Below, piece after piece: positions 29,005-48,014 of a stretch of DNA of 64,000 nucleotides (positions are counted from its first letter, which is position 1; every line of letters begins with the position of its first letter). Below the pieces are notes generated by a model. The model was not told where the DNA came from, ran no database searches, and worked only from the letters and a program-made list of their open reading frames with translations. The stretch covers positions 1-64,000 of the forward strand of contig JAJCZL010000056.1 in assembly GCA_029262415.1 (NCBI GenBank), in the 5' to 3' direction. Source of the stretch: Deltaproteobacteria bacterium. GTDB taxonomy: Bacteria; Desulfobacterota; Binatia; UBA1149; JAJCZL01. The position numbers and the translations under genes are program-made.

Positions 29005-30783
29005 ATGGAAACCGACACCGAGCACAAAGCGGCAAATGCCCCTGCAGCTTTGCCTAAAACCACGCTGACCGACGGTGCGGGGCCGGAGGGCGAGGGCAAC
29101 GGTCATTTTGAACGGAGCCCTCTTGACGACGCACTGCTCGAATCGGGCAAGATCTCGGTTGACGACCTGCGCAAGGTCCGCCGCTTCTCTCACGAGAAGG
29201 GGGAACGCGTCGAGCGTATGCTGGTCGAACTCGGCTTTGTCTCCGAAGACGACCTGCTGCCGATTCTCGCGGTTTACCACGGCACCGAGTTGGTCAGTGC
29301 CGATACCATTCCAGCCGAACCTCCGGTCATCGACAAGCTCAGCCTTGAGTACATGCGTGCCAATCGGATTCTGCCGATGCGCCTGCACGACGGCATCGTG
29401 ACGTTGGCTATGGCCGACCCGGGCGACTCGACGACCATCGAGGTCGTCGAGAAGGTGACCGGCCTACAGGTTGAACCTTTGCTCGTACGTCCGCGTGACT
29501 TAGTCGAAAGGTTCGATGCGATCTTCGGCCGCGTCGAGGGTGAAGATGGTCGTGACGACGGTGGCGTCGAGCTGCTGCAGGACGATGAAGAAGACGTCGA
29601 ACACTTGCGTGACATGGCCAGCGAAGCGCCGGTCATACGTCTCGTCAATCAGGTTCTCTCGCGGGCGGTCGAGCAGCGCGCTTCAGATATCCATGTCGAG
29701 CCTTTCGAGAACGAGCTGCGTGTTCGGTTTCGCATCGACGGTGTTTTGCACGATATCGATCCGCCGCCGCGCAAGTTGACTGCGGCCATCATCTCGCGCA
29801 TCAAGCTGATGGCCAAGCTCAACATCGCCGAACGGCGTCTTCCGCAAGACGGGCGTATCAAGCTGCGCTTGGTCGGCCGAGAGATTGACCTGCGGGTTTC
29901 GACGCTTCCGACCTTATACGGCGAGAGCGTTGTCATGCGTATACTCGACCGTTCGAACGTGATGGTCGATCTTGGTCAACTCGGTATGCCCGAGGACACC
30001 TTGGGGACGTTCAAGGCGATGATCTCGCAGCCCCATGGGCTGATCCTCGTCACCGGACCTACCGGTTCCGGTAAGACCACGACGCTTTACGGCGCGCTCG
30101 ATAAGATCAATTCTCCTGAGAAGAAAATCATCACGATCGAGGATCCGGTCGAATATCAATTGCGCGGTGTCAATCAGATCCACGTCAAGGCCAAGATCGG
30201 ACTCACATTCGCGAGTGGGCTGCGCTCGATTGTGCGTCAGGACCCCGACGTGATTATGGTCGGCGAAATTCGTGATAGCGAAACCGCTGAGATCGCGATT
30301 CAAGCCGCGCTCACCGGCCACCTGGTTTTCTCCACGCTTCACACCAACGACGCAGCAGGCGCCGTTTCACGCTTGCTGGAGATGGGTGTTGAAGACTATC
30401 TACTTGCGTCGTCGCTACTCGGCGTGCTCGCCCAGCGACTGGTACGCACGTTGTGCAAAAAGTGCGCGGTGGCTGAACCGCTAGCTCCGGAGCTGGCCGC
30501 GCAGCTTGGTTGGGTTGGTGATTCTGCACGTCAGTCGGTATACGATGCCGACGGTTGTGCCGAGTGCGCGGGTACCGGATTCCGTGGACGGCGTGGTATT
30601 TATGAGTTGCTGTCAGTTAACGAAGACGTTCGTAAGCTCATCGTTTCGCGTGCGCCGGCCGACAAGGTCAAAGCGGCGGCGATTGACGGTGGGATGCGGA
30701 CCCTGAGGGAAGACGCTTGGCTACGCGTAAGCGACGGAATCACCAGTGTGGCAGAGATCATGCGCGTCACCCAAGACGAATAG
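29005..30783 (+). CDS. gspE: Type II secretion ATPase GspE
   Basis: A 592-residue secretion ATPase. The N-terminal T2SSE domain (about 40-170) holds LLESGKISVDDLRKVRRFSH and would bind GspL. The motor has GPTGSGKTTT from 351, the Asp box around 376-381, the His box and Walker B DPDVIMVGEIRD at 413-424. A zinc-binding tetracysteine (484, 487, 518, 521) marks GspE/PilB. It is separated from gspF by six glycan-type genes, whereas gspE and gspF usually adjoin. PilB is the alternative, but the only T2SS-like core genes nearby are gsp genes. Confidence 0.9.
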   Translation: METDTEHKAANAPAALPKTTLTDGAGPEGEGNGHFERSPLDDALLESGKISVDDLRKVRRFSHEKGERVERMLVELGFVSEDDLLPILAVYHGTELVSADTIPAEPPVIDKLSLEYMRANRILPMRLHDGIVTLAMADPGDSTTIEVVEKVTGLQVEPLLVRPRDLVERFDAIFGRVEGEDGRDDGGVELLQDDEEDVEHLRDMASEAPVIRLVNQVLSRAVEQRASDIHVEPFENELRVRFRIDGVLHDIDPPPRKLTAAIISRIKLMAKLNIAERRLPQDGRIKLRLVGREIDLRVSTLPTLYGESVVMRILDRSNVMVDLGQLGMPEDTLGTFKAMISQPHGLILVTGPTGSGKTTTLYGALDKINSPEKKIITIEDPVEYQLRGVNQIHVKAKIGLTFASGLRSIVRQDPDVIMVGEIRDSETAEIAIQAALTGHLVFSTLHTNDAAGAVSRLLEMGVEDYLLASSLLGVLAQRLVRTLCKKCAVAEPLAPELAAQLGWVGDSARQSVYDADGCAECAGTGFRGRRGIYELLSVNEDVRKLIVSRAPADKVKAAAIDGGMRTLREDAWLRVSDGITSVAEIMRVTQDE

Positions 30784-31724
30784 AACGAATCGCAGCCGTC
30801 GTCCCGGCCTATCTGTCTGAGACCACAATTGGGGCGACGCTCCAAGCGCTGTTGAGCCCGGCTTCGCCCAGGCTTGTTGGTATCTTTGTCGTAGCGTCGC
30901 CAGGTGACCGTAGCGCCGAGATTGCCGCACGATATTCCGCAGTCAGTGTTCTGCGTCCGCCTCGACGTATGAGTGCGGGTGCGGCACGTAACCTCGGTGC
31001 CGCAGAGGCCGCCCGCCGGGGCTGTGACGCGGTTCTGTTTGTGGATGCAGATTGTCGAATCGCTCCCGATTGCCTTGAGCGGCTCGCCCAGGCGCTCGAG
31101 CGGTCTGTAGCTGTCGCCGCTGCAGCAGCCGTGGTTCGCGACGGGAATGGGACGGTCGCGCGCTTGCGCCACGCGCTCGAGTTCAAGGACTCCGACGGCA
31201 GCGCGCCGCCGGGCCCGGTGGTGTTCGTGCCGAGCGCGACTTTCATTTGCCTAGGCTCGGCGTTTGAACGGGTCGGAGGCTTTCCGGATATGTGGCCCGG
31301 CGAAGACTTGGTGTTCTGTGACGCATTGCTAAGACGCTTCGGTAGAGCCGCGATTACTCGTGCGCCTGGGGCGAAGAGCTTTCATCGTCATCCGCATGGA
31401 TGGTGGAACATGGCTATTCACCAATACCGGTTGGGTCGCACCTCGGCGTTGGCGCGCAGGCGTGCGCGTATTCATGGCTCGAGGTGGGCGCGCACGCCGC
31501 TGGTGGCACCGGTACTCGCACTCGGTCGAATCGTCCGCGCGGTCGTGTGGTTCGCCCGCTACAAGAAAGACGAGTTGGTGTGGTTGGTCGCGGTGCTACC
31601 TGCGTACGCAGCGCTTGTCGGCATTTGGGCGGTGGGTTTCGCCGCCGGGTGTGGGGGCACCCTCACGCCCCACCGTGCGCTTGGTATCGATTCGCCCGTA
31701 GATAGCGCACGTCGGGCTGCCTGA
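30717..31724 (+). CDS. Glycosyltransferase family 2 with C-terminal membrane segment
   Basis: A GT-A glycosyltransferase. IAAVVPAYLSETTIGATLQA is the nucleotide-binding start, AVLFVDADCRIAPDCLE contains the DxD motif and GGFPDMWPGEDLVFCDALL the acidic acceptor motif. A hydrophobic segment LVWLVAVLPAYAALVGIWAV lies near the C-terminus. No ATG, GTG or TTG stands at the expected start. TTG 30717 overlaps gspE by 67 bases and adds 21 residues. An ATA at 30780, overlapping the gspE stop as ATAG, would give the expected MERIAAVVPAY start. The coordinates use TTG; the true start is unresolved. Confidence 0.8.
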   Translation: MATRKRRNHQCGRDHARHPRRIERIAAVVPAYLSETTIGATLQALLSPASPRLVGIFVVASPGDRSAEIAARYSAVSVLRPPRRMSAGAARNLGAAEAARRGCDAVLFVDADCRIAPDCLERLAQALERSVAVAAAAAVVRDGNGTVARLRHALEFKDSDGSAPPGPVVFVPSATFICLGSAFERVGGFPDMWPGEDLVFCDALLRRFGRAAITRAPGAKSFHRHPHGWWNMAIHQYRLGRTSALARRRARIHGSRWARTPLVAPVLALGRIVRAVVWFARYKKDELVWLVAVLPAYAALVGIWAVGFAAGCGGTLTPHRALGIDSPVDSARRAA

Positions 31725-31886
31725 GGCGTTCCCCCCGGCTTTTTGTGGTTCTGTGTCTGCCCGCGCGGCGCGGTCTATCAAAGATCCGAAGATCCGGCCT
31801 ATCCTGGCATTGTGCGCAGAGTTTGCGCTGTTGCTTTACGAATGTTCAGGTGGTGGACATAGGGTCCGCGAGAAGAGGTCTTGGTA

Positions 31887-32819
31887 TTGCGAGAGGCTCC
31901 GACACTTAACCAAGCACCCTCGGTCGGTGTTGTCGTTGTCGCATACAACGGCGGCACGCTGCTCGGAACTTGCGTTGATGCACTGGTCCGGCGTTCGCCG
32001 CGAGGTACGCGGGTGCTGCTAGTCGACAACGGCTCGAGCGACGGTTCAGTCGAGGCTGTTCAGGCGCAGTTTCCACGCGTGGCGATCTTGCGCCTGAACC
32101 AGAATTTAGGGTTTGCCGGCGGTGCGAACGCGGGCCTTCGGCATCTGACCGACGGCAGCGCGGACCGTACGCCGGTGCTGCTCGGCTTGGTCAACCAGGA
32201 TTGCATCGTGGCTGGCCGATGGCTCGAGCCCTTGGCGCAAGCGCTCACCGATCCGAGCATCGGTCTGGTCGGCTCGCGGCTGCTTGGCAGTGACGGTGTC
32301 ACGCTCGAACATGCCGGCGGGATCGTCGAAGCGAATGGGCTTACGCGACACATCGGTCGCGGTCTGAGCGATCGTAGAGCGTTCTCTCGCCACTCCGATG
32401 TCGAGTATGTGACCGGCGCGGTTGTGGTCATGCGGGGTGAAATCTGGAAGCGCTTCGGTCCCTTCGATGAAGGCTACTTCCCAGCCTACTTCGAAGAAGT
32501 GGACTTTTGTGTACGGCTACGCCACGCTGGTTTGCGAATCCGCTACGTACCCTCCAGCAGTGCCGTACACCATGTAGCTTCGGCTTCGGGCGGACCGGAT
32601 ACGCGTCTGTACTTCGAGCGTTACCACCGCAGCCGCATGCGCTTTGCCGCTCGTCATCTACTCGAGCGCGGCCAACGTTTGCAGTTTCTCAAAGCAGAAC
32701 TGAAGTGGCTGGGGCAGTTGCGTGACCGTTCGCATCTCGGCGCAGCTATCAACGCCTACAAAACGCTTCCGCAAGAATTGCGCGACGCGCGCAAGTCAAA
32801 GCGGAGCCACGGGCAGTGA
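31887..32819 (+). CDS. Glycosyltransferase family 2, rhamnosyltransferase-like
   Basis: A 310-residue GT2 resembling the WbbL group. SVGVVVVAYNGGTLLGTCVD starts the fold, RVLLVDNGSSDGSVEAVQAQ and RLNQNLGFAGGANAGLRH follow, LVNQDCIV stands where NPD-type motifs bind the metal, and FDEGYFPAYFEEVDFCVRLR is the acceptor region. I use TTG 31887, eight bases after AGAAGAGG; TTG 31881 is too close to it. The preceding 162 bases hold no gene I can support. Sugar and acceptor are not known. Confidence 0.85.
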   Translation: MREAPTLNQAPSVGVVVVAYNGGTLLGTCVDALVRRSPRGTRVLLVDNGSSDGSVEAVQAQFPRVAILRLNQNLGFAGGANAGLRHLTDGSADRTPVLLGLVNQDCIVAGRWLEPLAQALTDPSIGLVGSRLLGSDGVTLEHAGGIVEANGLTRHIGRGLSDRRAFSRHSDVEYVTGAVVVMRGEIWKRFGPFDEGYFPAYFEEVDFCVRLRHAGLRIRYVPSSSAVHHVASASGGPDTRLYFERYHRSRMRFAARHLLERGQRLQFLKAELKWLGQLRDRSHLGAAINAYKTLPQELRDARKSKRSHGQ

Positions 32820-34234
32820 GCCGCCTGTGCCTGGTCGGCGTCGGTCTCCCGGCATTCGTTGCCGGACGTGAACACGCAGGGCCGGGCCTGCGCAGCGCGC
32901 ATTTTGCCGTCGCCGCTGCGCGTGCAGGCCACGAGGTCCTGCTGGTCTGCGTGTTGCCCGAAACACGCGCGCTCGAACCGGCTTTTGTCCATGCACCGGT
33001 TGCTTCGGTCGGCGGCCTGCGTGCTGCCGCCATTCGTACCGTTTTCGCTCATGAGAAAGGCTTTCCGCACTCACCGTTGCGAGAGCAGATCGAGGCTTTC
33101 GATCCGCAGGCGCTTGTCGGTGTGACGGCGTACGGCGCTTCTGTTGCGCTGAGGATTGGCTTGCAGGTGCCGATGTGGGCCGACGTGTTCGGTGACTTAA
33201 TGGCCGAAGCACAGGCCAAGTCGCTCGCGGCCGGCTCTGACGCGTGCCTCGTCCATTTTTGGAGCTTGTTGGCACCGGTACTCAACCGGGCCGACCGGTT
33301 CTCTGCGGTCTCAACCGCCCAGGCCCACGCGCTGGTCGGCCAACTCGGACTGTGTGGGCGGCTCTCGGCAGCCACTGCCGGTGAGAATTTTGTGCGGGTA
33401 ATCCCGTGTTCCGCCGAACCTCCGTCACCCGAGCTGCATGGTGTCGGCCGCTTTCGATTGCGCGGAGAAGTAGTCCCTCAGGATGCGCGCATCGTCCTAT
33501 GGAGCGGTGGTTTCAACACCTGGTGCGACGTGGACACCTTCGCGCGCGGCATCGAACTCGCAATGGACGCCGATGTGAGTCTTCACTTGGTGGTTACCGG
33601 TGGGTCGATTGGCGGGCACGACGAGCGCACCTATGAACGGTTTCGTAGCCTCGTCGAGCGTTCCCGCAACGTTGCACGTGTCCACCTGCTCGGCTGGATC
33701 GAGTCGGACGGGCTGGTTGGTTGCTACGCCGATGCCGACCTGGGGATCATCGTTGAGCGCGATTTGTACGAGCGACGCCACGGTTCGGAGAACCGTGCGG
33801 TTCATTGGATGGCGCATGGACTCCCGTTTGCAACCACGGCTCTGAGTGAATTTGGAGGCTATGCGTGCGCAGCCGGGTGTGCGTTCGCGATCGAGGCCGG
33901 ATCGCCCGCGTCGCTGAGCGAGACGCTTGGTGCAGTGTTCGCGCATCCGTCGGCGCTCGCGAGCGCCTCTGCGCGATGCCGAGAGCTAGCCGGACGTGAA
34001 TTCAGCTACGCCAGTGCGAAGCCGTTTCTTGACTGGGCCGCTTCACCAATCAAGGCGGGGGATCACGGTTGCGAACGTCCGTTGCGCCCAGGGCTGCTTT
34101 CGGAGCCCGAGGCCCTCGCCGATGTCCTTGAGGCCTATCTGGCCGGACTCAGTCTCATGGAACTCGGTCGCCGCTCGACACGCTGGCTGTGGCGTCGTGT
34201 GCTCGGTATTGGGGCCTACGGCGCGCACGGTTGA
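32816..34234 (+). CDS. Glycosyltransferase, GT4-like (GT-B fold)
   Basis: A 472-residue protein. The N-terminal domain starts SRLCLVGVGLPAFVAGREHA, then RSAHFAVAAARAGHEVLLVC. The C-terminal domain has ARIVLWSGGFNTWCDVDTFA, ARVHLLGWIESDGL and LPFATTALSEFGGYACAAGC, in the order of a GT-B donor domain. The usual EX7E element is poorly conserved. The GTG start overlaps the previous stop (GTGA), so the two transferases are coupled. Substrates cannot be inferred. Confidence 0.72.
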   Translation: MSRLCLVGVGLPAFVAGREHAGPGLRSAHFAVAAARAGHEVLLVCVLPETRALEPAFVHAPVASVGGLRAAAIRTVFAHEKGFPHSPLREQIEAFDPQALVGVTAYGASVALRIGLQVPMWADVFGDLMAEAQAKSLAAGSDACLVHFWSLLAPVLNRADRFSAVSTAQAHALVGQLGLCGRLSAATAGENFVRVIPCSAEPPSPELHGVGRFRLRGEVVPQDARIVLWSGGFNTWCDVDTFARGIELAMDADVSLHLVVTGGSIGGHDERTYERFRSLVERSRNVARVHLLGWIESDGLVGCYADADLGIIVERDLYERRHGSENRAVHWMAHGLPFATTALSEFGGYACAAGCAFAIEAGSPASLSETLGAVFAHPSALASASARCRELAGREFSYASAKPFLDWAASPIKAGDHGCERPLRPGLLSEPEALADVLEAYLAGLSLMELGRRSTRWLWRRVLGIGAYGAHG

Positions 34235-34272
34235 GAACCGATCCGCGTGCGCGTAGTCTCACGGACTGCGTC

Positions 34273-35943
34273 GTGGCAAACCCCGATAAAGTATTCGTCA
34301 TCGGTCTCGACGGCGTCCCTTTTGACATCATCCGTCAGTGGGCCGACGAGGGGCACATGCCGGTGTTCAAGCGATTGATCGAGGAGGGTGTCGCGGGCTC
34401 CTTGGGTTCGACCATGCCGCCGACCTCGGGTCCCTCTTGGTCAAGTTTTACCACCGGCAAGAACCCCGGCAAGACGGGGATCTACGATTTTCTTTATCGG
34501 CGTCCCGGTTCTTACGTTTTCCCTCCGGTCAGCGCACGCATGCGCAGCGGCCGGTCGCTGTGGAGTATTCTCTCGGAGCGGGGAAAGAAGGTGGGTGTCG
34601 TCAACCTGCCGATCTCTTATCCCGTGGAGAAGGTCAACGGCGTGCTCGTCAGCGGATGGATGACGCCGTATTACGCCAAAGACTACACGTATCCTCCTGA
34701 GCTGGCTGCTGAGATTGACCGCGAGGTCGGCGACTACCGCATATACCCGGCTGAGACGTTTGCCGAGGGCCGCAAAGACGCTTTCTTCAAAGCCTGCGAT
34801 GAACTGCTCGAGCTGTTGACGCGAACCACCATGCATCTGATGGATCGCGACGATTGGGACTTCTTCATGACGGTCTATTTCGATACCGACCGTGTGTTTC
34901 ACCAGCTATGGCATTATCTCGACCCTGCACATCCTTGGAGAGCCGACGATAAGCGCGATTTATCGACACCGGTCAAGCGCTACTTTTCGCGGTTAGACGC
35001 CGATGTCGGCCGTTTGCTCGACAAGCTTCCCGAAGACACGCGTGTGATGGTCATGTCCGATCACGGCATGGGCACTGCCGCGCGCTTCATCGTACTGAAC
35101 AACCTGCTGCTCGAGACCGGCTGGATCAAGCTAGCCGACGACGCGGGGACACGAATGAAAGCGTTCGCCTTCCGACGCGGGTTTACGCTGCGCAACGTGC
35201 ACAAGATTGTCGACCGGTTGGGGCTCGCCAAGCATGCCGAGTACAAGAACGTCTACAGCTTCGATGGTGTGCTCAAGCGCTTCTTCCTTTCGTTCCTCAA
35301 CGTCGATTGGCGACGCACGCGCGCTTACTCTTTTGGTCGGCACTACGGTTCGCTCTATCTCAACGTGAACGGCCGCGAGCCACAGGGCTGCGTCGCGCCT
35401 GGTAAGGAATACGAGCGTGCGCGTGAGGAATTGAGCGAAACACTACTTTCTTATGTCGATCCCGAACTCGGCCGCCGACTGTTCGCGCGCGCGATCAAGC
35501 GTGAAGACCTCTACGCGGGCAAGCACTTCGACGAGGCGCCCGACTTGATCGTCACGCCGCAAGATCCGACCGATATCGTGTTTGGTCTTTCCGATTTCGG
35601 CTCCAACCGTGTTTGGGACGCGACCTACCGCTACTCTGGTATGCACCGCGAGGACGGGATGATCATCGCGCACGGCCCTGGGGTTCGCAGCGGTGAATCG
35701 TTCGCAGGGGGGGCGGTGATCGACCTTGCGCCGACCATCCTGCATTGGATGGATCAGGCGGTACCTGCGGATATGGACGGCCGGCCATTGGCCTCGATGA
35801 TGACGGATGACTTCATGAGCAAGCGTCCAGTCTGTGTGGCCGAGCCTGTCTCCGATCGCGACGACACCTCCGCGCACGACTACTCGACGGACGAGGAAGA
35901 GGAAATCATGGACCGACTTCGCGACCTCGGTTACATGAACTGA
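34273..35943 (+). CDS. Alkaline phosphatase superfamily hydrolase (type I phosphodiesterase-like)
   Basis: A 556-residue cytoplasmic protein without signal peptide. Metal-site motifs of the superfamily are in order: FVIGLDGVPFDII (Asp13), MPPTSGPSWSSFTTGKNPGK with the Thr/Ser nucleophile near 51-52, YFDTDRVFHQLWHY, VMVMSDHGMG and the histidine of YSGMHREDGMIIAHGPGV. It resembles COG3379-type hydrolases often seen in glycan loci. I chose GTG 34273; the frame is open further upstream into the preceding gene, but the added residues do not look conserved. The substrate, possibly a phosphodiester-linked glycan or nucleotide sugar, is unknown. Confidence 0.82.
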   Translation: MANPDKVFVIGLDGVPFDIIRQWADEGHMPVFKRLIEEGVAGSLGSTMPPTSGPSWSSFTTGKNPGKTGIYDFLYRRPGSYVFPPVSARMRSGRSLWSILSERGKKVGVVNLPISYPVEKVNGVLVSGWMTPYYAKDYTYPPELAAEIDREVGDYRIYPAETFAEGRKDAFFKACDELLELLTRTTMHLMDRDDWDFFMTVYFDTDRVFHQLWHYLDPAHPWRADDKRDLSTPVKRYFSRLDADVGRLLDKLPEDTRVMVMSDHGMGTAARFIVLNNLLLETGWIKLADDAGTRMKAFAFRRGFTLRNVHKIVDRLGLAKHAEYKNVYSFDGVLKRFFLSFLNVDWRRTRAYSFGRHYGSLYLNVNGREPQGCVAPGKEYERAREELSETLLSYVDPELGRRLFARAIKREDLYAGKHFDEAPDLIVTPQDPTDIVFGLSDFGSNRVWDATYRYSGMHREDGMIIAHGPGVRSGESFAGGAVIDLAPTILHWMDQAVPADMDGRPLASMMTDDFMSKRPVCVAEPVSDRDDTSAHDYSTDEEEEIMDRLRDLGYMN

Positions 35944-35951
35944 GGACGATC

Positions 35952-38900
35952 GTGGCGCAGTTTCAGCGCTTCGCGGCAGCGGCCCTCGCGCTCTCCGCAA
36001 CAGCCGGAGGTTTCGGCTATTGGCGCGGGATTCCCGCCGCGGTTCTGGTTGTGTTCGTTATCTGGCTTCCCGGACACGTGTTGGTCACTACGGCTTTTGC
36101 GCCGCGAAGCCGTAATGCATGGTCGAGCGGGCCGGCCGCACCGGTTGCCGCATGGGTGGCGGGGATGTTCGTGTTTGGTCTCGCGCTGGCACCGGTGGCC
36201 CTGGCCGGCTGGGGTTGGACCGCGACGGTTCGCACCACGGCCTTTTTGCAACTCGGCATCGCGTGCGCCGCACTGGCGTCAATGCGTGTAGGAACGCGAG
36301 CTTTAACGGGCTGTTCCGGCCCGAGCGCAAAGGCAACGCGGACACAGTCGCGCGACACCTATGTGGTCGCCGGCATGGTCTTAGCAGTGCTGTTGCCGAT
36401 GGTTCTCACATACGCCGGCGGTAAGGTTGATGACTGGTGGGATCTCGCCTTCATTCGTGCACACGCCGAGGCCTCGTCATTCTCCTTTTTGCAGCCGGTG
36501 ATCACCGGCGATCTTGTTCACCCGCGTTTCAGTTGGAACCTGTGGTGGCTGCTTCAGTCTTTCTTGAGTACCTACTCGGGACGAGATCCGGTCGAGATGC
36601 AGTCGGCGCTGGTACCGTTCTTGGTCTGCGTGCTTTCGGTGAGCGCACTCACGTCACTCGCGGCTTCACTTTTTCTACCTGACACTGAACCCGCCGTCGC
36701 CCCAGGGTCGACTCGTAGTCTTTCGCCCAGCCGCGAAACACAGGTTGCACTTCTCCTGATGCCGGTGTGGTTGTACGGAACCGAGGCGTTTCCGTACTTC
36801 ACGCGCTTGCACCAGGACAAGTTTGCGGCGGTACTTGTCGCGGCGCCGTTGACGATCGCGGTTCTCTTACAGGCGCTGCGTACTCCGTCGCGGTTGCACA
36901 GCGTAGCGGTGTTTGTAGCGGCAGCGGTTACCTGTTCGATCCATTCGGTGGTCTACGGCTATCTGCTTTTGTTGGGTGCGGCTGTGGTGGTCGCCTGCAC
37001 GGGAGTTCATGACCTGCGCCGTCATGCCCTTACGTCTGTCGCCCTGGCGCTTCCTGTGGTGTTTCCGCTTTGGCAGTCGTACGCACTCTCTGAATTGTTT
37101 GTTGCGCAGGGGATCTCACTCGCAAATATGGGCAACCCGGTGGTTCGCGCTCACGTTTGGCTCGACCGTCTGGCCGGCGCCGGGTCACCGTACTATATCG
37201 TCAGACCGAGCGCTGCGTTCGGCCCGGTTGCGCTGGTTGCCTTGCCGGGGCTGGCTGTTGCGTGGAGGCGCCGTGCACAGGTAGGAATGCGCGCGTTGAT
37301 CGCCCTCGCCGTGGTGCCATGCTTGCTTGCGTTTATACCGGGGGTGGCTGCGATTGTGGGACGGGTCTTCGTTCCGTGGATGTTGTATCGGGTGCTGTGG
37401 TTCGTTCCGGTTGCCGTCGGCGGCGCACTTACGGTGTCGTGGGTGACTGACAATAGCGAAGGTTTACGGCGCGCGGCCTCGCTGGTGCTGTTGGGCGCAG
37501 TGACGCTCGCGCTCGCTGTGCCGGTTGCGGCCGACCGTGCGCATCGCGGAATGAGCGTGCGACCCTTCGAACGATCGGCACATCCCGAGGCAGCGGCGTT
37601 GGCCGCCTACAGTTTCCTCCGCAACGAGCCGGGGCGGGGCGCGGTGCTTGCGCCTGCGGGGTTCTCTGAGCTGGTACCGGCGATGACGGGACGGCCCGTC
37701 GTTGCCATCTCTGAACGGGGGACGTTGGTGTTTTCGCCGACCGAACGAGGGGCCTACGAACGGCTACGTGATCGCGCCGAGTTCTTCGCGCGCGACTCGA
37801 CGCCTGCGCACCGGACCGATATCGCCGACCGCTACGGCGTTACGCACGCGGTGTTTCGCAAGAAGTACATTGCGACTGGATCCGAGGCGGCGCTGCTGCG
37901 CCGGTACAGTGCCGAAGGCGTACTTCTCCGCACCGCCGCCGAGCAAGCGGGCGCGGGAGAGGTTTGGAGTACCTCCACCGCACGAATACGCGCGGGGTTG
38001 TCCGCAGGGTGGAGTGTTGTCTTCGACAGCGCAGACTTCGTTGTTGCGCGGCGGCAGGTGACCGGCGATGACGCTGTGTCTGAGCGACCGTTGCAAGACG
38101 TGGAAGCTGCCGCGGTGCGAGAGGAACCCCCATCGCGTTGGTTGAGAGTGTTCGAGTTGACGGAGCCCGCGGCGACGATCGCGGGTGAGAATTCGGAACC
38201 GCCCGCAGCGCACCGCTTGCTCGCCTCCCTTGTCGGTGAACCCGGTGCGGATATTCGTATCGATCCGGTACCCTTGGCGATCGGTAATGCCGAGACCCTG
38301 GTGTGGACATCGGGGGTGGCGTTGTGGGATGACGGGCCCTCTGAGGTCTCGGTGACGCTTGGGTTTGGCACGGTCTGCGAGCCCACACGCGTTGAGGTAC
38401 TGCCGTATCTACGCAAATCCCGGCGCGAGGTTTGGGAGATCCGCGCGTCGATTCGGCGTGCAAGCGAAGCACGGTTCTTGCCCGCAAGGCCGATTCCTAT
38501 CATTGCGCGTGCTTTGGATCACCGTCCGATCGTCGTCGAACTGGGCGCTGCGGCCGATGGGCCAGGCTCGACTGCACACGCGAGCAGGGCAAGCACGGCA
38601 GGGACGATCGGGGCAGCGGCTGAAGTCCGTATCGAGGTTCGCAGTATGCTGGGAGAACCGTTCGGCATCGCCGATATTCGGGTTTTCGGCGACCGTAGCC
38701 TCTGCGCCGGTCAGCGGCCTGGCCCAGCGACGGGGCCGCTGCAAGAAATTGACCTTTCCGAGCTGCTGTCGATGGCGGCCTCGTACCCGAACGATGCACG
38801 CCCAGCGATCGCGGTGCACCGTCGACTCAACGAAATGGGCGCGTTTGCTGACGCCGATGCATTCTTGCAGGCGGCTCTTTTGCGCGACCCGAGCCTTGCC

Positions 38901-39362
38901 AACGGTTTGGTTGAGCTGGGTCTTGCGCGTGATCGTGATGGGCGCATGGAAGAAGCCGGCGAGCTCTTCCGCCGCGCGGTACGCGCGGACTCTAACAACG
39001 CCTGGGCACGCGGTTGTCTGGCCTGGTCCGACCAACGCCGCGGCCGTCCCCTGCGCGCGCTTTGGCAGGCCGGCCGTGCAGCCGATCTAGACGAACGTTA
39101 TGCCGATGCGTGGACGATCAAGGGTATTGCGCAACGAAGTCTCGGTATGCGGGGGGCGGCGTTGAGTTCGCTGCGACGCGCAGTGCGGCTCGACCCAAGA
39201 CGCGATTGGGGCACCTATGAACTCTCGGCGACGCTCGCCCGCGCAGGTCGTCGCGAAGACGCACGGCGGGTACTGAGTCGCTACTTGCAGCTGAGTCCGG
39301 GTCGGCCCGAGACCTTGACCCGGTTGGCGGCGTTGGACGCAGAGGAGGGGGGAACGAAATGA
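35952..39362 (+). CDS. Large polytopic membrane protein with C-terminal TPR repeats
   Basis: An 1136-residue protein, GTG start. Roughly the first 530 residues form ten or more hydrophobic segments; a loop after the fourth to fifth carries GGKVDDWWDLAFIRAHAEA, with an acidic pair of the kind found in GT-C glycosyltransferases. A soluble part follows (about 540-700) with PAHRTDIADRYGVTHAVFRK, as in membrane mannosyl- and oligosaccharyl-type families. The last 210 residues contain about five TPR-like repeats, including DPSLANGLVELGLARDRDGR and YADAWTIKGIAQRSLGMRGA. I infer a GT-C type transferase or glycan polymerase; no known family is recognised with certainty. Confidence 0.7.
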   Translation: MAQFQRFAAAALALSATAGGFGYWRGIPAAVLVVFVIWLPGHVLVTTAFAPRSRNAWSSGPAAPVAAWVAGMFVFGLALAPVALAGWGWTATVRTTAFLQLGIACAALASMRVGTRALTGCSGPSAKATRTQSRDTYVVAGMVLAVLLPMVLTYAGGKVDDWWDLAFIRAHAEASSFSFLQPVITGDLVHPRFSWNLWWLLQSFLSTYSGRDPVEMQSALVPFLVCVLSVSALTSLAASLFLPDTEPAVAPGSTRSLSPSRETQVALLLMPVWLYGTEAFPYFTRLHQDKFAAVLVAAPLTIAVLLQALRTPSRLHSVAVFVAAAVTCSIHSVVYGYLLLLGAAVVVACTGVHDLRRHALTSVALALPVVFPLWQSYALSELFVAQGISLANMGNPVVRAHVWLDRLAGAGSPYYIVRPSAAFGPVALVALPGLAVAWRRRAQVGMRALIALAVVPCLLAFIPGVAAIVGRVFVPWMLYRVLWFVPVAVGGALTVSWVTDNSEGLRRAASLVLLGAVTLALAVPVAADRAHRGMSVRPFERSAHPEAAALAAYSFLRNEPGRGAVLAPAGFSELVPAMTGRPVVAISERGTLVFSPTERGAYERLRDRAEFFARDSTPAHRTDIADRYGVTHAVFRKKYIATGSEAALLRRYSAEGVLLRTAAEQAGAGEVWSTSTARIRAGLSAGWSVVFDSADFVVARRQVTGDDAVSERPLQDVEAAAVREEPPSRWLRVFELTEPAATIAGENSEPPAAHRLLASLVGEPGADIRIDPVPLAIGNAETLVWTSGVALWDDGPSEVSVTLGFGTVCEPTRVEVLPYLRKSRREVWEIRASIRRASEARFLPARPIPIIARALDHRPIVVELGAAADGPGSTAHASRASTAGTIGAAAEVRIEVRSMLGEPFGIADIRVFGDRSLCAGQRPGPATGPLQEIDLSELLSMAASYPNDARPAIAVHRRLNEMGAFADADAFLQAALLRDPSLANGLVELGLARDRDGRMEEAGELFRRAVRADSNNAWARGCLAWSDQRRGRPLRALWQAGRAADLDERYADAWTIKGIAQRSLGMRGAALSSLRRAVRLDPRRDWGTYELSATLARAGRREDARRVLSRYLQLSPGRPETLTRLAALDAEEGGTK

Positions 39363-40693
39363 ACGTTGCGATCCTCGGCCCCGCGCCGCCTCACCGCGGC
39401 GGCATCGCTGCGCATACAGCTGGACTCGAAGAAGCCCTACGTGATGCAGGTGCGTGCGTAGAAGTCATCGGCTACCGAAGGCTGTATCCGCAAGTGTTTT
39501 TCCCGGGGCGCTCTGAACTCGTGCCCGAGAGATCGAAGGCTTCGAACGCGTTGACGACCTCGATAGGAACGATTGGCGTGGAGGGCCAAGCCGTCGCGCT
39601 GGACCCCCTGCGTCCCTTGGCGTGGCGCGCTGTCAACGCACATTTGCGACGCATGCGCCCTGACCTGATCATCGTGCAGTGGTGGCATCCGGCGTTCGCG
39701 CCTGCGATCTTGGCGGCGCTCGCGGGGCGGGACGTCAGCCGTGTGGTTTTTGTTTGTCACAACGCGGTGTCGCACGAAGCGGTTCCCGGCGCTGCGCCGT
39801 TGACCGCCCTCGCGCTTGGGCGCGCTGGTGCGGTCTTGTGTCACTCGGACTTTGTCGCTGAGCACCTCAGCTCAAAACACCCGCGGTTGGTTGTCGAGCG
39901 AGTCGCGATGCCGGTTTTGTTGGTTGCGCCGAGTGAAGCACCCGCGCGTGACACAATTCGCGAGTCGTACGGAGTTGGCCGTGACGGCGGTCTTGTCGTA
40001 TGCGCGGGGCTAGTGCGGCGCTATAAAGGCGTTGATGTATTGCTCGATGCTTGGGGCGGTGCACGTATACCTGACCACGCACGCTTGCTGGTTGCAGGTG
40101 AATCCTACCTTGGCAGGGGCCGCCTCCAGGCGCTGGTGGATGGCTGCGCGCGTAGAGACTCGGTTTGTATCGATGATCGCTATCTCGCTGACGACGAACT
40201 CGTATCGTTACTGGCTGCAGCTGATCTCGTGGTGTTGCCTTATAAGTCTGCAAGCCAAAGTGGGCTCATGCCCATGGCCGCTGCAGTTGGGGCTCGGCTG
40301 TTGACTTCCGATGCCGGAGGGCTCTCCGAGCGGTTGTCGTTCGATGCCGACGTGCGGTGCTTTAAAGTCGGCTGTCGTGCATCGCTGCGTCGCGGGCTCG
40401 AGCGCGTGCTTTCGCCGACTGCGCCGCAAATGCTTTGCCCCGATGCGAAGCGTCAGCCGATCACCGACCAGGATTTTTCGCGCTACTCACTCCTGCGCGC
40501 CGAAAGTTGGGCGCGCGTGATTGAAGCTTTAGACGGGCTCGTACGTCGATTAAATACCGGGCGTGGCGAGGGCTTGAGTGCGCCACAGGGTTTGGCGGTT
40601 CTAAGGGGCGCCGGAGGTTTTGGTCGGTTCGCTTGCGCGGGGCCACGGGGCCGACGGCTCGGGTTGCATCCCGGCTCCGGACCCGTGGTATAA
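39359..40693 (+). CDS. Glycosyltransferase family 4
   Basis: A 444-residue GT-B enzyme. It starts MNVAILGPAPPHRGGIAAHT, as GT4 proteins do. The donor domain has VVCAGLVRRYKGVDVLLDAW and DLVVLPYKSASQSGLMPMAA, followed by LTSDAGGLSE. The start overlaps the previous stop (ATGA). After the fold ends near IEALDGLVRRL, about 50 glycine and arginine-rich residues follow that do not look like part of the family. That DNA also carries a possible promoter for gspF. Confidence 0.85.
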   Translation: MNVAILGPAPPHRGGIAAHTAGLEEALRDAGACVEVIGYRRLYPQVFFPGRSELVPERSKASNALTTSIGTIGVEGQAVALDPLRPLAWRAVNAHLRRMRPDLIIVQWWHPAFAPAILAALAGRDVSRVVFVCHNAVSHEAVPGAAPLTALALGRAGAVLCHSDFVAEHLSSKHPRLVVERVAMPVLLVAPSEAPARDTIRESYGVGRDGGLVVCAGLVRRYKGVDVLLDAWGGARIPDHARLLVAGESYLGRGRLQALVDGCARRDSVCIDDRYLADDELVSLLAAADLVVLPYKSASQSGLMPMAAAVGARLLTSDAGGLSERLSFDADVRCFKVGCRASLRRGLERVLSPTAPQMLCPDAKRQPITDQDFSRYSLLRAESWARVIEALDGLVRRLNTGRGEGLSAPQGLAVLRGAGGFGRFACAGPRGRRLGLHPGSGPVV

Positions 40694-40735: not shown

Positions 40736-41977
40736 ATGGCACAATTTTCTTACCGAGCATCGACCGCTGACGGCCAGATTGTCGAAGGCGTAATCGACGC
40801 TGACGTCGAATCTACAGTTGTCGCCAGCCTCCGCGGACAAGGCTATATTCCCATCCAAATCGACCACGGCGCGAAACTCGCGCGGGGTGGCGCCGGTGCG
40901 TGGGCGGCGGGCCTGACTGAGTCGTTCGAACGCTGGCGAGACCGAGTCAGCAATCGCGACCTGATGCTTTTTACGCGCGAGCTGGCCACTCTCCTCAACG
41001 CCGGCCTTCCCCTCGACCGCTGCCTACAGAGTTTGGCCACGCTGACTGAGAAAGAGTCGCTCAAGGCGATCGTGCGGCGCGTGCTGGTAGACGTCCAGGA
41101 AGGCAAGTCTCTTTCAGACGCACTCGCTGTTCACGACTACGTATTTCCCGCTTTGTACGTCAACATGGTTCGTGCCGGCGAAGCCGGTGGTGTTCTGGAG
41201 ATGATACTGGAGCGGCTTGCCGATTACCTCGAACAATCACAGAAGGTACGCGACGAGGTCAGCTCGGCGATGACCTATCCGATTTTCCTTGTCGTTGTCG
41301 GCGGTCTGATGATGGTTGGGATGCTGACCTATGTGCTGCCGAAATTCGCGGTCTTGTTTAATGATCTCGGCGGCGCGTTGCCTGCCTCGACGCAGTTTGT
41401 TATGGCGCTCAGTGACATATTCCGGGCCTACTGGTGGGCGATGTTGCTTGGGTCGGGAGTTATCTTCTTCGGGGTCCGACGCTGGAGCAACAGCCAAAAG
41501 GGACGTGCTACGGTCGACCGCTTTAAGCTGCAGATGCCGATACTCGGGGACCTGTTCACGAAAATGCAAGTCGCCACGGTTGCACGTACGCTTGGTACGA
41601 TGCTCAAGAGCGGCGTGCCGTTGATTAAGTCTTTGGAGATCGTCAAGGCTGTAGTCGCCAACGTGGTGATCGGGCGCGCTTTGACCGAAGTCCAGCACGA
41701 CGTGAGCGAAGGCAAGGGGCTGGCGTCGCCGTTGGAACGTACGGGTGTGTTCCCCTCGATGGCGCTGCAGATGGTCAGCGTGGGCGAGGACACCGGCCGC
41801 CTCGACGAAATGCTGTTGGTGGTTGCGGACCACTACGATCGGGACGTGTCGAATATCATCAAAAGCCTGATGTCGATGATTGGCCCGATTGTCATGATCT
41901 TCATCGCCGGCCTGGTCGGGTTCATCATCATGGCGGTGATGTCGGCGATCTTTAGCGTCAACGAACTGATCGAGTGA
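40736..41977 (+). CDS. gspF: Type II secretion inner membrane protein GspF
   Basis: A 413-residue platform protein. It starts MAQFSYRASTADGQIVEGVI, and the two T2SSF domains contain LMLFTRELATLLNAGLPLDR and VATVARTLGTMLKSGVPLIK. The three membrane segments include MTYPIFLVVVGGLMMVGMLT and the C-terminal IGPIVMIFIAGLVGFIIMAV. GspF is thought to transmit GspE action to pseudopilus assembly. It is separated from gspE by a glycan cassette. gspG follows after 34 bases behind TAAGGAG. Confidence 0.93.
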   Translation: MAQFSYRASTADGQIVEGVIDADVESTVVASLRGQGYIPIQIDHGAKLARGGAGAWAAGLTESFERWRDRVSNRDLMLFTRELATLLNAGLPLDRCLQSLATLTEKESLKAIVRRVLVDVQEGKSLSDALAVHDYVFPALYVNMVRAGEAGGVLEMILERLADYLEQSQKVRDEVSSAMTYPIFLVVVGGLMMVGMLTYVLPKFAVLFNDLGGALPASTQFVMALSDIFRAYWWAMLLGSGVIFFGVRRWSNSQKGRATVDRFKLQMPILGDLFTKMQVATVARTLGTMLKSGVPLIKSLEIVKAVVANVVIGRALTEVQHDVSEGKGLASPLERTGVFPSMALQMVSVGEDTGRLDEMLLVVADHYDRDVSNIIKSLMSMIGPIVMIFIAGLVGFIIMAVMSAIFSVNELIE

Positions 41978-42011: not shown

Positions 42012-42464
42012 ATGGAGATTGCAACCAAACCGATGAAAATCAGCACTGACGAAAAACGCCAACGAGGGTTCACGCTGATCGAGATCCTCCTCGTCATGGC
42101 AATCCTTGGCATGCTCGCAGCGATGGTGTTGCCAAACATCGTCGGCAGCGCTGAAAAGGCGCGTATCAAGACTGCGCAGACGCAGATCGCGAGCCTCGGG
42201 ACCGCGCTAGACGCTTTCGCACTTGATGTCGGACGTTATCCCGACTCGCAGGAAGGACTCGAAGCTCTGGTTCAAGCCCCACAAGGCATGCGAATGTGGG
42301 CCGGCCCCTATCTCAATAAGTCGTTACCGATGGACCCTTGGGGCAACCCCTACGAATACACCGGGCCTGATCGTGGGAATACCGGCTACGAACTGATCAG
42401 CTATGGGGCGGACGGGCGCAGCGGTGGCGAAGGCGGCGACGGCGACATTAGCAACCTCCGTTAG
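42012..42464 (+). CDS. gspG: Major pseudopilin GspG
   Basis: A 150-residue major pseudopilin. The prepilin peptidase site is RQRG/FTLIEILLVMAILGML, with glutamate at position 5 of the mature chain. The family C-terminal part has MDPWGNPYEYTGPDRGNTGY and SYGADGRSGGEGGDGDISN, the calcium-binding region in known GspG. The leader of about 20 residues is longer than usual. An in-frame ATG at 42033 would shorten it, but TAAGGAG at 41992-41998 better suits the first ATG. No prepilin peptidase gene lies in the window. Confidence 0.95.
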   Translation: MEIATKPMKISTDEKRQRGFTLIEILLVMAILGMLAAMVLPNIVGSAEKARIKTAQTQIASLGTALDAFALDVGRYPDSQEGLEALVQAPQGMRMWAGPYLNKSLPMDPWGNPYEYTGPDRGNTGYELISYGADGRSGGEGGDGDISNLR

Positions 42465-42488
42465 CGCGATCGAAGCAAAACCCCAGTG

Positions 42489-42962
42489 GTGAACCCGCGC
42501 GGCACATCTTCCCAGACGGGGTTCACGCTGATCGAACTCGTGGCCGTACTCGTCATCATGGCGCTGGCTTCGGCTTTGGTGATACCGTCGGTTCGTTCGG
42601 GCAACGAGCAGCGCGAGGTTCGTCGCACCGTCCAGCGGTTTGTTTCGGCGGTGCGCGCGGGATCCTCGCGCGCGATCCGTGAGCGTAAGCTAGTAGGCCT
42701 GGTGCTCGATGTTGAGAAACCGAGTTTCGGCGTCCGCGGTGATGACCGTGTTATCGAGCTGCCATCGTCCGGCGCTTTCGGCGAAATCCGCGGCGGCTAC
42801 GTCGAGGGTGACGGGCAGAGGTTCGTTTTCGAGTTCTATCCAACCGGAGGGTCGACCGGCGGCTCTGTCGAACTCGTCTTCGAATTACGCGCCGGTCGCC
42901 AAACGTACGTGATGAACATCAACCCGCTTCTCAGCACCGTGGGTATCGAGGAGGGGATGTGA
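42489..42962 (+). CDS. gspH: Minor pseudopilin GspH
   Basis: A protein of about 157 residues starting at tandem GTG codons (42486, 42489). The cleavage site QTG/FTLIELVAVLVIMALASA is followed by the helix with NEQREVRRTVQRFVSAVRAG and a GspH-type beta domain. Order G-H-I-J-K identifies it. Its stop overlaps the region of the gspI start. Confidence 0.9.
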   Translation: MNPRGTSSQTGFTLIELVAVLVIMALASALVIPSVRSGNEQREVRRTVQRFVSAVRAGSSRAIRERKLVGLVLDVEKPSFGVRGDDRVIELPSSGAFGEIRGGYVEGDGQRFVFEFYPTGGSTGGSVELVFELRAGRQTYVMNINPLLSTVGIEEGM

Positions 42963-43390
42963 TGCGTGGTGTCGGCCGGGTCAAGCCCGAAGGTGGCTTC
43001 ACCCTGATCGAGGTGATGGTGGCGATGGCGGTACTGTCGTTTGCGTTGGTGAGCGCGTTGCAGCTCTTTGCCGGGAGCATGCGGCTGGCGGGTAACTCGG
43101 TGGCGCATACCAAAGCGCTGATGCTCGGCCGTTCAGTTATGGACGAAATCCTTTGGCAGGCGGAACTCGAAGACCTCGAGGTTTCCGACCGGACTCCAGA
43201 CGGCTACCGGTGGTCGGCTTACGTCGGACCGGTGGCGGTCGCTTTGGGGGCGACCGCGGACGACGAAGGCGTAGGCGCCGACTCCGACGAGTTCGAACTC
43301 AAGCAGATCATCGTGCGCGTTGATTGGGAGGGAGTGCTCGGTGAAAAATCTATTGTTCTCGAGTCGGCGCGTCTTGCGGAGCGCTATTGA
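42962..43390 (+). CDS. gspI: Minor pseudopilin GspI
   Basis: A 142-residue minor pseudopilin with cleavage site EGG/FTLIEVMVAMAVLSFALV and the GspI-like NSVAHTKALMLGRSVMDEIL segment. ATG 42962 is six bases after GAGGAGGGG (42949-42956); GTG 42959, overlapping the gspH stop, is the alternative. GspI, J and K form the pseudopilus tip in known systems. Confidence 0.9.
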   Translation: MRGVGRVKPEGGFTLIEVMVAMAVLSFALVSALQLFAGSMRLAGNSVAHTKALMLGRSVMDEILWQAELEDLEVSDRTPDGYRWSAYVGPVAVALGATADDEGVGADSDEFELKQIIVRVDWEGVLGEKSIVLESARLAERY

Positions 43391-44124
43391 GCGCCGCGAC
43401 GACAGCAAGCTTCAGAGGCGAGCGCGGCTTTACGCTACTCGAAATGATGGTCTCGATGTTCATCATGGCGCTGATGTCGGCTTCGATTTACGGCGTGCTT
43501 TCTATGGGCGCTCGTGCTGCGGCCTCAGGGGAGCGTAAGACCGAACAGGCGCGACGCTTGCGGTTGGCGACCGATTTGATGGTCAGGCAGCTACGCTCGA
43601 CAGTACCGATTGCGTTGATCGTTGACGGCGAGTCTCGCGAGTTTTTTGTCGGTGAGCACGATCGAGTCACGTTCGTCACCTCGGCCCCGCAGATTCCGGA
43701 CTCCAGCGGCCTTAGTCTCGTCAGCTACTGGCGCGAAGGCGACCGGCTGATGTATTCAGAGGTTCCGCGCTTCGCGGTCTTTGACGCCGAAGATATCGAC
43801 GAGATCACCCAGGAGCTGTCGATGTCGACGACGCTGCTTTATGACGTCGACGCCGTAAGCTTTTGGTACCGGCGAAACTCGAGTCGCGATGAAGAGGTTT
43901 CGGATGAATGGGACGCATCCAAGGAAGACGACTTGCCCGCGGTCGTCGAGATTGTGGTGACACCGGCTACGCCGGACGGACCGTCTTGGCACCACCAGGT
44001 GCCGATCTTGGTCGGCGTGTTCAACGAGATCAGTGGAGAAGACGACTTCCGCGGCCGTCGCCGCGCAGTGACGCGGGAGCCCGAGCCGGACGACGACGAT
44101 GACGACGACGATGATGACGAATGA
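43387..44124 (+). CDS. gspJ: Minor pseudopilin GspJ with poly-aspartate tail
   Basis: A 245-residue pseudopilin starting at TTG 43387, which overlaps the gspI stop (TTGA). The cleavage site is ERG/FTLLEMMVSMFIMALMSA. VRQLRSTVPIALIVDGESRE and the later FWYRRNSSRDEE fit GspJ. The last 11 residues are ten aspartates and one glutamate, encoded by GAY codons at 44089-44118, which I have not seen as a normal part of GspJ. The tail ends at the gspK start region. Confidence 0.9.
   Translation: MSAATTASFRGERGFTLLEMMVSMFIMALMSASIYGVLSMGARAAASGERKTEQARRLRLATDLMVRQLRSTVPIALIVDGESREFFVGEHDRVTFVTSAPQIPDSSGLSLVSYWREGDRLMYSEVPRFAVFDAEDIDEITQELSMSTTLLYDVDAVSFWYRRNSSRDEEVSDEWDASKEDDLPAVVEIVVTPATPDGPSWHHQVPILVGVFNEISGEDDFRGRRRAVTREPEPDDDDDDDDDDE
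44089..44118 (+). repeat. GAY codon tract encoding ten aspartates
   Basis: Ten consecutive GAC or GAT codons at the end of gspJ, followed by GAA and the stop. The tract runs directly into the possible gspK start ATGATGACGAAG. Such trinucleotide tracts can change length by slippage. Confidence 0.9.
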
Positions 44125-44207
44125 TGACGAAGTGTTCTAAATCGTCGCTTCGGCGACACGATTCGGCCGCCTACGCGGACGGCGAGCCGCTGCGTGAGGA
44201 CGCGCCG

Positions 44208-45245
44208 ATGCGCGAGTCGGCACTGTCACGGCTGCGTCACTCGCGCGGCGCGGCGTTGATTCTGGTTTTGTGGACGTTCTCTGTCCTGTCGGTGTTGGCA
44301 GGAGAGTTCGCCCGAGCGATGCGCGAAGATGCTCTCAGCACCCGCAACTTTCGCTTGCAGACTACCGGCCAATACATCGCGATGGCGGCTATCAACGAGG
44401 CGATATTGGCGATGATTACGGCTCGTGACGATGACCTTGATGACGACCCCGACGACGAAGAGATCCCCGAGCAAGAACTGCCCTTCGACCCTGACGCTCC
44501 GCCGATCGATAGTGGCAAGCGCGCGATCCGGATGTTAATGCAGGGTGACGGCCGCTGGGTACGCGGCGCTTTTGCGGGTATCCCCTATGAAGTCAGGGCT
44601 ATCGACGAGGGCGGCAAGATTGCGATCAATCAGGTTGACGTCGAGGTGATCCGCTTGGTGATGCTCAACCTTGGATACGAGGAACTCACTGGAGACACCG
44701 TCGCCGACTCGATAGCTGACTGGATCGATGAAGACGATCTCCACCGCATAAACGGTGCCGAGGAGGATTTTTACGACGGGTTGCCACGGCCTTATCCTGC
44801 TAAGAATGCGCCGCTGGAGGCGATCGAGGAGTTGCTGCTCGTGCGTGGGGTTACGCGGTCGATCTTTTACGGAGGCGACGGGGTTCCGGGACTGCGCGAG
44901 ATCTTCTCTGTATTTGCGACTAACGATAAGCTGAACCTGCGCAGCATCCGTCCCGAGGTCATGATTGCGATCAGCGGAATTCCCGAGGACGATGCCGACG
45001 AGTTGCGTCGGCGCCGCAATCGAAGCGGAGAAAACGTCTCAGAAGAGCTGAGGGTGCTGGTTACCGGCAGCGGTCTGGGAACTCCTCGCGAATCGGCCTT
45101 GACGGATGTGACGATCGAGGCCCGGGTAAAAGATGCGGCAGGGCGCATTGTTGCGCATGTGGGGGCGGTGGTGAAGGTACGGAATGGTTTCCGAACTTAC
45201 CGCTGGTATGATTCGGTGTTCGAGGACGACGGGGAAGCGAGCTAG
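44208..45245 (+). CDS. gspK: Minor pseudopilin GspK
   Basis: A protein of about 345 residues, larger than the other pseudopilins as is typical. The leader ends SRG/AALILVLWTFSVLSVLAGEF without the glutamate at position 5, as usual for GspK. The alpha domain contains AINQVDVEVIRLVMLNLGYE-like helical sequence and SIADWIDEDDLHRINGAEED, the calcium-binding SAM-like part in known GspK. I prefer ATG 44208, eight bases after GAGGA. The frame is open from ATG 44121, which overlaps the gspJ stop and would add 29 residues. Confidence 0.87.
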   Translation: MRESALSRLRHSRGAALILVLWTFSVLSVLAGEFARAMREDALSTRNFRLQTTGQYIAMAAINEAILAMITARDDDLDDDPDDEEIPEQELPFDPDAPPIDSGKRAIRMLMQGDGRWVRGAFAGIPYEVRAIDEGGKIAINQVDVEVIRLVMLNLGYEELTGDTVADSIADWIDEDDLHRINGAEEDFYDGLPRPYPAKNAPLEAIEELLLVRGVTRSIFYGGDGVPGLREIFSVFATNDKLNLRSIRPEVMIAISGIPEDDADELRRRRNRSGENVSEELRVLVTGSGLGTPRESALTDVTIEARVKDAAGRIVAHVGAVVKVRNGFRTYRWYDSVFEDDGEAS

Positions 45246-48011: not shown

Positions 48012-48014
48012 TAG

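Follow-up and report, generated by a model that had tools for sequence, protein, structure and literature searches.

A GT-C-like membrane protein with a tetratricopeptide repeat tail, encoded between gspE and gspF in a type II secretion operon

The window analyzed here is a stretch of 64,000 nucleotides from a Deltaproteobacteria bacterium (GTDB lineage Bacteria; Desulfobacterota; Binatia; UBA1149; JAJCZL01), corresponding to positions 1 to 64,000 of contig JAJCZL010000056.1 in GenBank assembly GCA_029262415.1. It contains an operon for a type II secretion system (T2SS) in which a cassette of glycosyltransferase (GT) genes lies between gspE and gspF. One gene of this cassette is an open reading frame (ORF) of 1136 amino acids (aa) on the + strand (35952-39362), predicted to encode a GT-C-type membrane protein with a C-terminal tail of tetratricopeptide repeats (TPR). 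This ORF, originally proposed from the DNA letters without database searches (hereafter the sequence-only reading), is confirmed: it has a GTG start with a GAGG stretch just 5' of it, its stop codon and the ATG of the following gene (39359) share a 4-base overlap, and it has orthologues in 13/13 genomes of the order, including that of the window. Identity between these orthologues and the window protein is 36-41%, which shows a real and old gene rather than a chance frame. A scan of a collection of genome contigs returned one relative only, and among 148 genomes of the class, 13 have a clear orthologue while two others match weakly. Phylum-wide, most matches to the full-length query were TPR-only and were excluded from the relatives; a profile of the membrane part matched six of 297 genomes, two of these weakly and in its C-terminal part. 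When the window protein was compared with Pfam and NCBIfam, only TPRs scored above chance (residues ~952-1132, Pfam TPR_2 and others).

The gap between gspE and gspF holds, in order, genes for two GT2 enzymes, a GT4 enzyme, an enzyme of the alkaline phosphatase (AP) superfamily, the GT-C/TPR protein, and another GT4 enzyme, all on the + strand like the genes around them. The left border is gspE, encoding the T2SS ATPase (29005-30783; TIGR02533, 660 bits, over the cut-off), and the right border is gspF (40736-41977; TIGR02120, 1.5e-119, just under the cut-off). As assessed by Pfam and synteny, the GT2 genes lie at 30717-31724 and 31881-32819, and the first GT4-type gene at 32816-34234. The GT4-type gene that follows the GT-C/TPR gene (GT4b, 39359-40693) was assigned by the same means and by its coordinates. 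The rest of the operon (42012-50207), annotated with NCBIfam, comprises gspG, H, I, J, and K, probably L and M, a C-like gene, and gspD. Among the equivalog models, GspE, GspG, and GspD score over their cut-offs, whereas scores are lower for H, I, J, K, and C; positions 45245-46621 gave no NCBIfam match, and 46621-47238 lay outside the scan. The operon thus resembles other T2SS operons in having gspE, F, G, H-K, a C-like gene, and D in order, but differs from them in that a glycan cassette separates gspE from gspF. An lptD gene is also found near the cassette. Synteny within the order was examined by tblastn on the 12 other genomes. The AP gene adjoins the GT-C/TPR gene in 13/13 genomes (12 by tblastn, plus the window), gspE lies 5' of the cassette in all nine stretches that reach that far (eight others and the window), and GT4b followed by gspF is found in all 11 genomes whose contigs span it (eight by tblastn, two from gspF loci, and the window). 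The cassette therefore keeps the same place throughout the order wherever contigs reach.

Hydropathy averaged over 13 aligned orthologues gave 16 peaks. Because the weakest of them (residue 202) is amphipathic and falls within a long loop, the first large periplasmic one, we count ~15 membrane segments rather than 16, and not the ten or so of the sequence-only reading. Four extra N-terminal transmembrane segments (TM), supported by hydropathy over the 13 orthologues and by positive-inside bias, occupy residues 1-136 (35952-36359, with the boundary at 36360). They are followed by a fifth segment equivalent to TM1 of GT-C enzymes, a 62-residue loop containing the motifs DDWWD and HPRF, six segments, then a loop of 41 residues, four further segments, and the soluble part. 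DDWWD (residues 160-164) consequently sits after the fifth segment, later in the membrane part than the early position first given to it. Lys and Arg account for 22.1% of residues in predicted cytoplasmic loops versus 9.5% in periplasmic loops (12 orthologues). According to one published account, GT-C enzymes with 11 TM follow a 1-6-4 plan, with the N terminus in and the C terminus out (PMC6801728). As judged by hydropathy and the positive-inside rule, the membrane part after TM4 fits this plan. We therefore delimit a putative GT-C core of 11 membrane segments at residues 137-526 (36360-37529), which is consistent also with profile alignment to PMT_2 proteins and with DUF6077 matches in orthologues, both described below.

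Conservation within this core is concentrated on the predicted periplasmic side. Residues invariant in 11 orthologues make up 37 of 135 periplasmic-loop positions versus none of 98 cytoplasmic-loop positions. None of the 12 charged residues and histidines that are invariant in the membrane part falls in a cytoplasmic loop: 11 are located in periplasmic loops, and H331 sits where a TM meets the periplasm. In the first large periplasmic loop (residues 157-218, 36420-36605), DDWWD and HPRF (190-193) are invariant in orthologues and align with the DE and HPPL motifs of PMT_2 proteins. Loss of the acidic pair among homologs had been named beforehand as one outcome that would refute the GT-C interpretation, and the result favors that interpretation. 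The pair D160-D161 is kept in 13/13 orthologues and, when superfamily conservation was scored on 26 aligned rows, D160 was found in all 26 and D161 in 12. R192, D289, H331, R406, and R480 are likewise unchanged in 26/26 rows, and R285 and K290 are each kept in 25. These residues belong in part to three further motifs: R285-x3-D289-K290 in the second periplasmic loop (residues 281-290, 36792-36821); NPVVRAHxxxxR in the fourth, large loop (residues 379-419, 37086-37208), where besides R406, H401 is present in 23/26 rows with three gaps; and VPWMLYR480-x5-P486 in the fifth loop and the start of the next TM (residues 467-486, 37350-37409), where W483 is found in 26/26 rows and P486 in 25/26. The window protein thus displays GT-C-type motifs in the loops called EL1 (DD), EL2 (Rx3D), and EL5 (Rx5P). 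In published GT-C enzymes, the corresponding motifs are Rx4D in EL2 and Rx6P in EL5, or eight residues in POMT (PMC6801728). The EL1 acidic motif has an indispensable first Asp in other GT-C enzymes, where the lipid-linked phosphate is bound by positively charged residues toward the end of this loop (PMC7801869). Two hallmarks of GT-C proteins are therefore present in the predicted layout: a DD/DE/DxD acidic motif within the large periplasmic loop that follows the first core TM, and a core of 11 TM arranged 1-6-4 (otherwise 13, arranged 1-8-4) whose loops 1 and 4 are large and whose conserved residues are non-cytoplasmic, given our hydropathy boundaries.

To place the protein, profiles were compared with hhalign. 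The 11 orthologues aligned with 30 PMT_2 proteins of the same order with a probability of 94.9% (E 4.2e-8), paralogues with 93.8%, and orthologues and paralogues together with 94.5%. In the orthologue run, D160-D161 falls opposite the Asp-Glu, and the His-Pro of HPRF opposite the His-Pro of HPPL, in PMT_2. In contrast, controls gave 0.9% for MFS and 0.2% for 19 Wzy_C proteins, with the MFS, Wzy_C, and DUF1736 sets ranging from 0.1 to 3.6% over runs. Four of 11 orthologues match the unnamed Pfam family DUF6077 (PF19554), and in a genome search three orthologue loci score above its cut-off, whereas the window protein itself gave no match to DUF6077 up to E 1 and so stays short of the gathering cut-off. 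By sequence, it is a relative rather than a scored member of this family. The sequence-only reading had found no named family for the protein, which holds for the window protein itself but not for those four orthologues. Two tandem paralogues in the window's own genome, and others in the order, do match DUF6077. Because sequence profile, topology, and conservation agree, the best interpretation of the membrane part is a GT-C glycosyltransferase related to DUF6077, which bears out the GT-C-like character first claimed for it.

The DUF6077/GT-C paralogues have a setting of their own. In the window's genome they lie on another contig (C34, locus L077:8600-14619), and similar loci (L078, L081, and L083) likewise carry one or two TPR-free paralogues. 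In several genomes of the order, paralogues at such loci are located directly 3' of a gene for a luciferase-like monooxygenase. A cluster of more distant GT-C relatives, in which the equivalent of D160 is kept, was found in another family of the class (genome G281, L084:6660-18119).

As the sequence-only reading had it, a soluble domain separates the membrane part from the TPRs. It begins with a small periplasmic α/β region (residues 527-714, 37530-38093) containing a conserved α/β stretch common to orthologues and paralogues, aligned around FSELVPAxxGxPVVAxxERGTLVF, in which F594 and R604 are invariant in paralogues too. A β-rich domain follows (residues 715-933, 38094-38750), as judged from modeled strands of middling predicted local distance difference test score (pLDDT). 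This domain has no credible Pfam match and was not assigned by sequence to any jelly-roll or carbohydrate-binding family. C809 and C918 within it are invariant in 12/12 orthologues, as the partners of a periplasmic disulfide would be. The tail itself (residues 934-1136, 38751-39359) matches Pfam TPR_2 and other TPR models of Pfam and NCBIfam. Although a 603-residue C-terminal model has an overall pLDDT of only 54.6, its TPR part consists of 12 helices with pLDDT mostly 70-93. These correspond to ~six TPRs, so that the TPRs claimed earlier are present but number about one more than the five counted. A VIA-align fold search with this model returned a list filled by TPR proteins, with O-GlcNAc transferase, for example, among the best matches (Z 20.6, root mean square deviation 2.3, 155 residues). 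Both the β-rich domain and the TPR tail are predicted to be periplasmic.

The gene immediately upstream (34189-35943) encodes an AP-superfamily phosphodiesterase-like enzyme, in agreement with its first annotation (PF01663, E 3.7e-43). When the alignment was read by eye, 12/12 orthologue rows were found to keep a D, T, D, H, DH, H pattern, which we take to be the D, T/S, D, H, DH, H metal site of the superfamily. Domain and pattern together place the enzyme in the AP superfamily. In the same alignment, the protein begins at its first β strand, with no signal peptide or TM, and should therefore be cytoplasmic. Considering that the acidic motif of the GT-C protein is predicted to be periplasmic, the two proteins, although encoded in one cassette, probably face opposite sides of the membrane. 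This weakens the earlier suggestion that they act on one lipid-linked glycan; the two could share a glycan only by acting on it in succession, one on each side. Among orthologues the AP enzyme is 61-73% identical, compared with 33-43% for the GT-C/TPR protein and 72-78% for gspE.

Outside the order, the neighborhood of gspF is variable. In 17 gspF loci with flanks of ≤1.5 kb, gspE was found in two and the AP enzyme in two, and 13 of the 17 had none of the nine window query proteins besides gspF and gspG. We judged longer stretches across the class by tblastn, because ORF calling is unreliable in this GC-rich DNA. In 12 such stretches, gspE was found in four, GT4b-like genes in four, the AP enzyme in two, and the GT-C/TPR orthologue in none. 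Five of the loci (L217-L219, L226, and L227) showed none of the cassette proteins. In L222, the gspE-gspF gap contains only the AP enzyme, whereas in L224 it contains a GT2, a PMT_2 GT-C protein, a FabH-like protein, the AP enzyme, a GT4, and an ABC transporter. Upstream of gspF, L228 has Wzy_C, a sulfatase, GT2, and GT4, while L220 and L221 have proteins with two GT2 stretches; gspE was not seen in these three. Across the class, the gap seems to act as a site where glycan or AP-superfamily genes are exchanged, and what it holds differs by family.

Starting from features evident at the level of sequence (the GT-C relation, the topology, the conservation, the TPR tail, and the constant place in the T2SS operon), we infer a periplasmic glycosylation, perhaps of a T2SS protein. 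The protein would be a GT-C enzyme with a periplasmic active site whose TPRs hold the acceptor, most likely a protein of the T2SS or its cargo, a proposal to which we give an even chance. Four extra helices would precede the 11-helix core, whose periplasmic loops would form the active site. D160/D161 would be the catalytic or metal-binding acids, and R192, R285/D289/K290, H331, R406, and R480 would bind a polyprenyl-phosphate-linked donor through its phosphate and sugar. The β-rich domain and the ~six TPRs would project into the periplasm and bind the acceptor there. On the cytoplasmic side, the GT2 and GT4 enzymes of the cassette would take part either in preparing the donor or in building the glycan, while the AP enzyme would act on a phosphorylated intermediate. 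Given the position of the cassette within the T2SS operon, the acceptor would most likely be a protein of, or carried by, this system, i.e. a pseudopilin or a substrate. A wider scheme, which we regard as rather doubtful, is an order-wide protein glycosylation coupled to secretion. In it, a TMTC-like GT-C enzyme with periplasmic TPRs would capture and tag a pseudopilin or substrate entering the T2SS, its enzymes being encoded in the secretion operon, and the gspE-gspF gap would serve other families as an exchange site for their own glycan-modifying sets.

The same enzyme could instead act on a glycan, such as a lipid-linked oligosaccharide, lipopolysaccharide, or exopolysaccharide, with the TPRs assembling polysaccharide machinery and the T2SS position reflecting co-regulation or chance retention. 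This is quite possible, although we lean away from it. The cassette consists mostly of glycan-building GTs, genes of surface-glycan type adjoin gspF in other families of the class (L224 and L228), and lptD is nearby, all of which would suit a glycan acceptor, but the order-wide place of the cassette between gspE and gspF is then left unexplained, and a periplasmic TPR tail is accounted for less simply than by a protein acceptor. That the GT-C/TPR protein diverges faster than its neighbors would be expected if it were a degenerate, non-catalytic GT-C fold, i.e. a periplasmic scaffold whose TPRs organize T2SS or envelope assembly. We consider this unlikely, since orthologues keep, without change, the charged residues that an active site would require, and none of the 12 invariant charged residues and histidines lies in a cytoplasmic loop. 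Least probable is a Wzy_C/PglL-type O-antigen ligase or oligosaccharyltransferase with a TPR tail, acting on a lipid-linked oligosaccharide. TPR-tailed O-antigen ligases are known to exist, and a Wzy_C protein is found in the L228 cassette, but none of 11 orthologues has a Wzy_C match and the profile probability of 0.2% contrasts with 94.9% for PMT_2. Wzy_C membership was dropped on these grounds.

Several findings weigh against a periplasmic GT-C enzyme serving the T2SS. The second position of the acidic pair is held by Arg as often as by Asp in the superfamily (Asp 12, Arg 12, Ala 1, and Lys 1 in the 26 rows). The PMT_2 profile match spans only 94 columns, the profile gives only 3.6% against bacterial DUF1736 (TMTC-type) proteins, and a profile search of PDB sequences returned no credible relative. 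An AlphaFold prediction of residues 1-672 from a two-sequence alignment reached a pLDDT of 35.9, too low for a usable model of the membrane part. Both the count of 1-6-4 and the tallies over loops rest on TM boundaries that we drew from hydropathy. A gspF-type match is present in 140 of 145 genomes of the class, compared with 13 of 148 for the orthologue, indicating that the GT-C/TPR enzyme and its cassette are dispensable to the T2SS in general, and in L223 gspE directly precedes gspF with nothing between them, which speaks against the coupling.

Comparison with known systems sets the protein apart from each. Like ArnT-PMT-type enzymes of PMT_2 (PF13231), it has an acidic pair and an HP motif that align in the first large periplasmic loop, and conserved R, D, H, and R in later loops. 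Unlike them, it has four extra N-terminal helices and no PMT_2 match by hidden Markov model, its profile aligning only over the first part. The two tandem DUF6077 paralogues of the same genome match without TPRs, whereas the window protein and its orthologues add the β-rich domain and the TPRs. As described in PMC7801869, TMTC proteins have an 11-helix GT-C core, luminal TPRs, and DD in EL1, and TMTC-like full-length homologues have been noted in prokaryotes, so that a bacterial GT-C protein with TPRs is not new as such. The likeness to TMTC1-4, which are GT-C O-mannosyltransferases, lies in the 11-helix core, the EL1 DD, and a TPR tail outside the cytoplasm, but the window protein has in addition the N-terminal helices and the β-rich domain. 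Membership of TMTC (GT105) was dropped, as no DUF1736 (PF08409) match was found in the window's genome and the DUF1736 profile probability was low. The combination of GT-C core and TPR tail is shared in architecture only and could be convergence. By analogy, TMTC is the closest working counterpart of the protein, not its family. GT-C enzymes are known as a kind, while the variant with four extra helices, a β-rich domain, and TPRs, encoded in a T2SS operon, is one that we have not found described; a limited literature search returned no paper on a GT-C/tetratricopeptide glycosyltransferase together with type II secretion, and none naming DUF6077. The present proposal, a well-founded hypothesis as far as sequences go, would assign to this DUF6077-related family, which has no known function, an activity that can be tested and a partner system, and should be relevant to specialists in protein secretion and glycosylation. 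It suggests that the GT-C and TPR design of animal TMTC also occurs in bacteria, in a separate GT-C line, and points to a glycosylation coupled with type II secretion, hinting that export and sugar-tagging may be coupled.

Two proteins of the same T2SS operon have unusual C termini. The GspJ-like protein (43387-44124) ends in ~ten aspartates, which is unusual for a minor pseudopilin, and the GspC-like protein (47235-48011) has a long C-terminal tail rich in Pro, Arg, Thr, and Ala.

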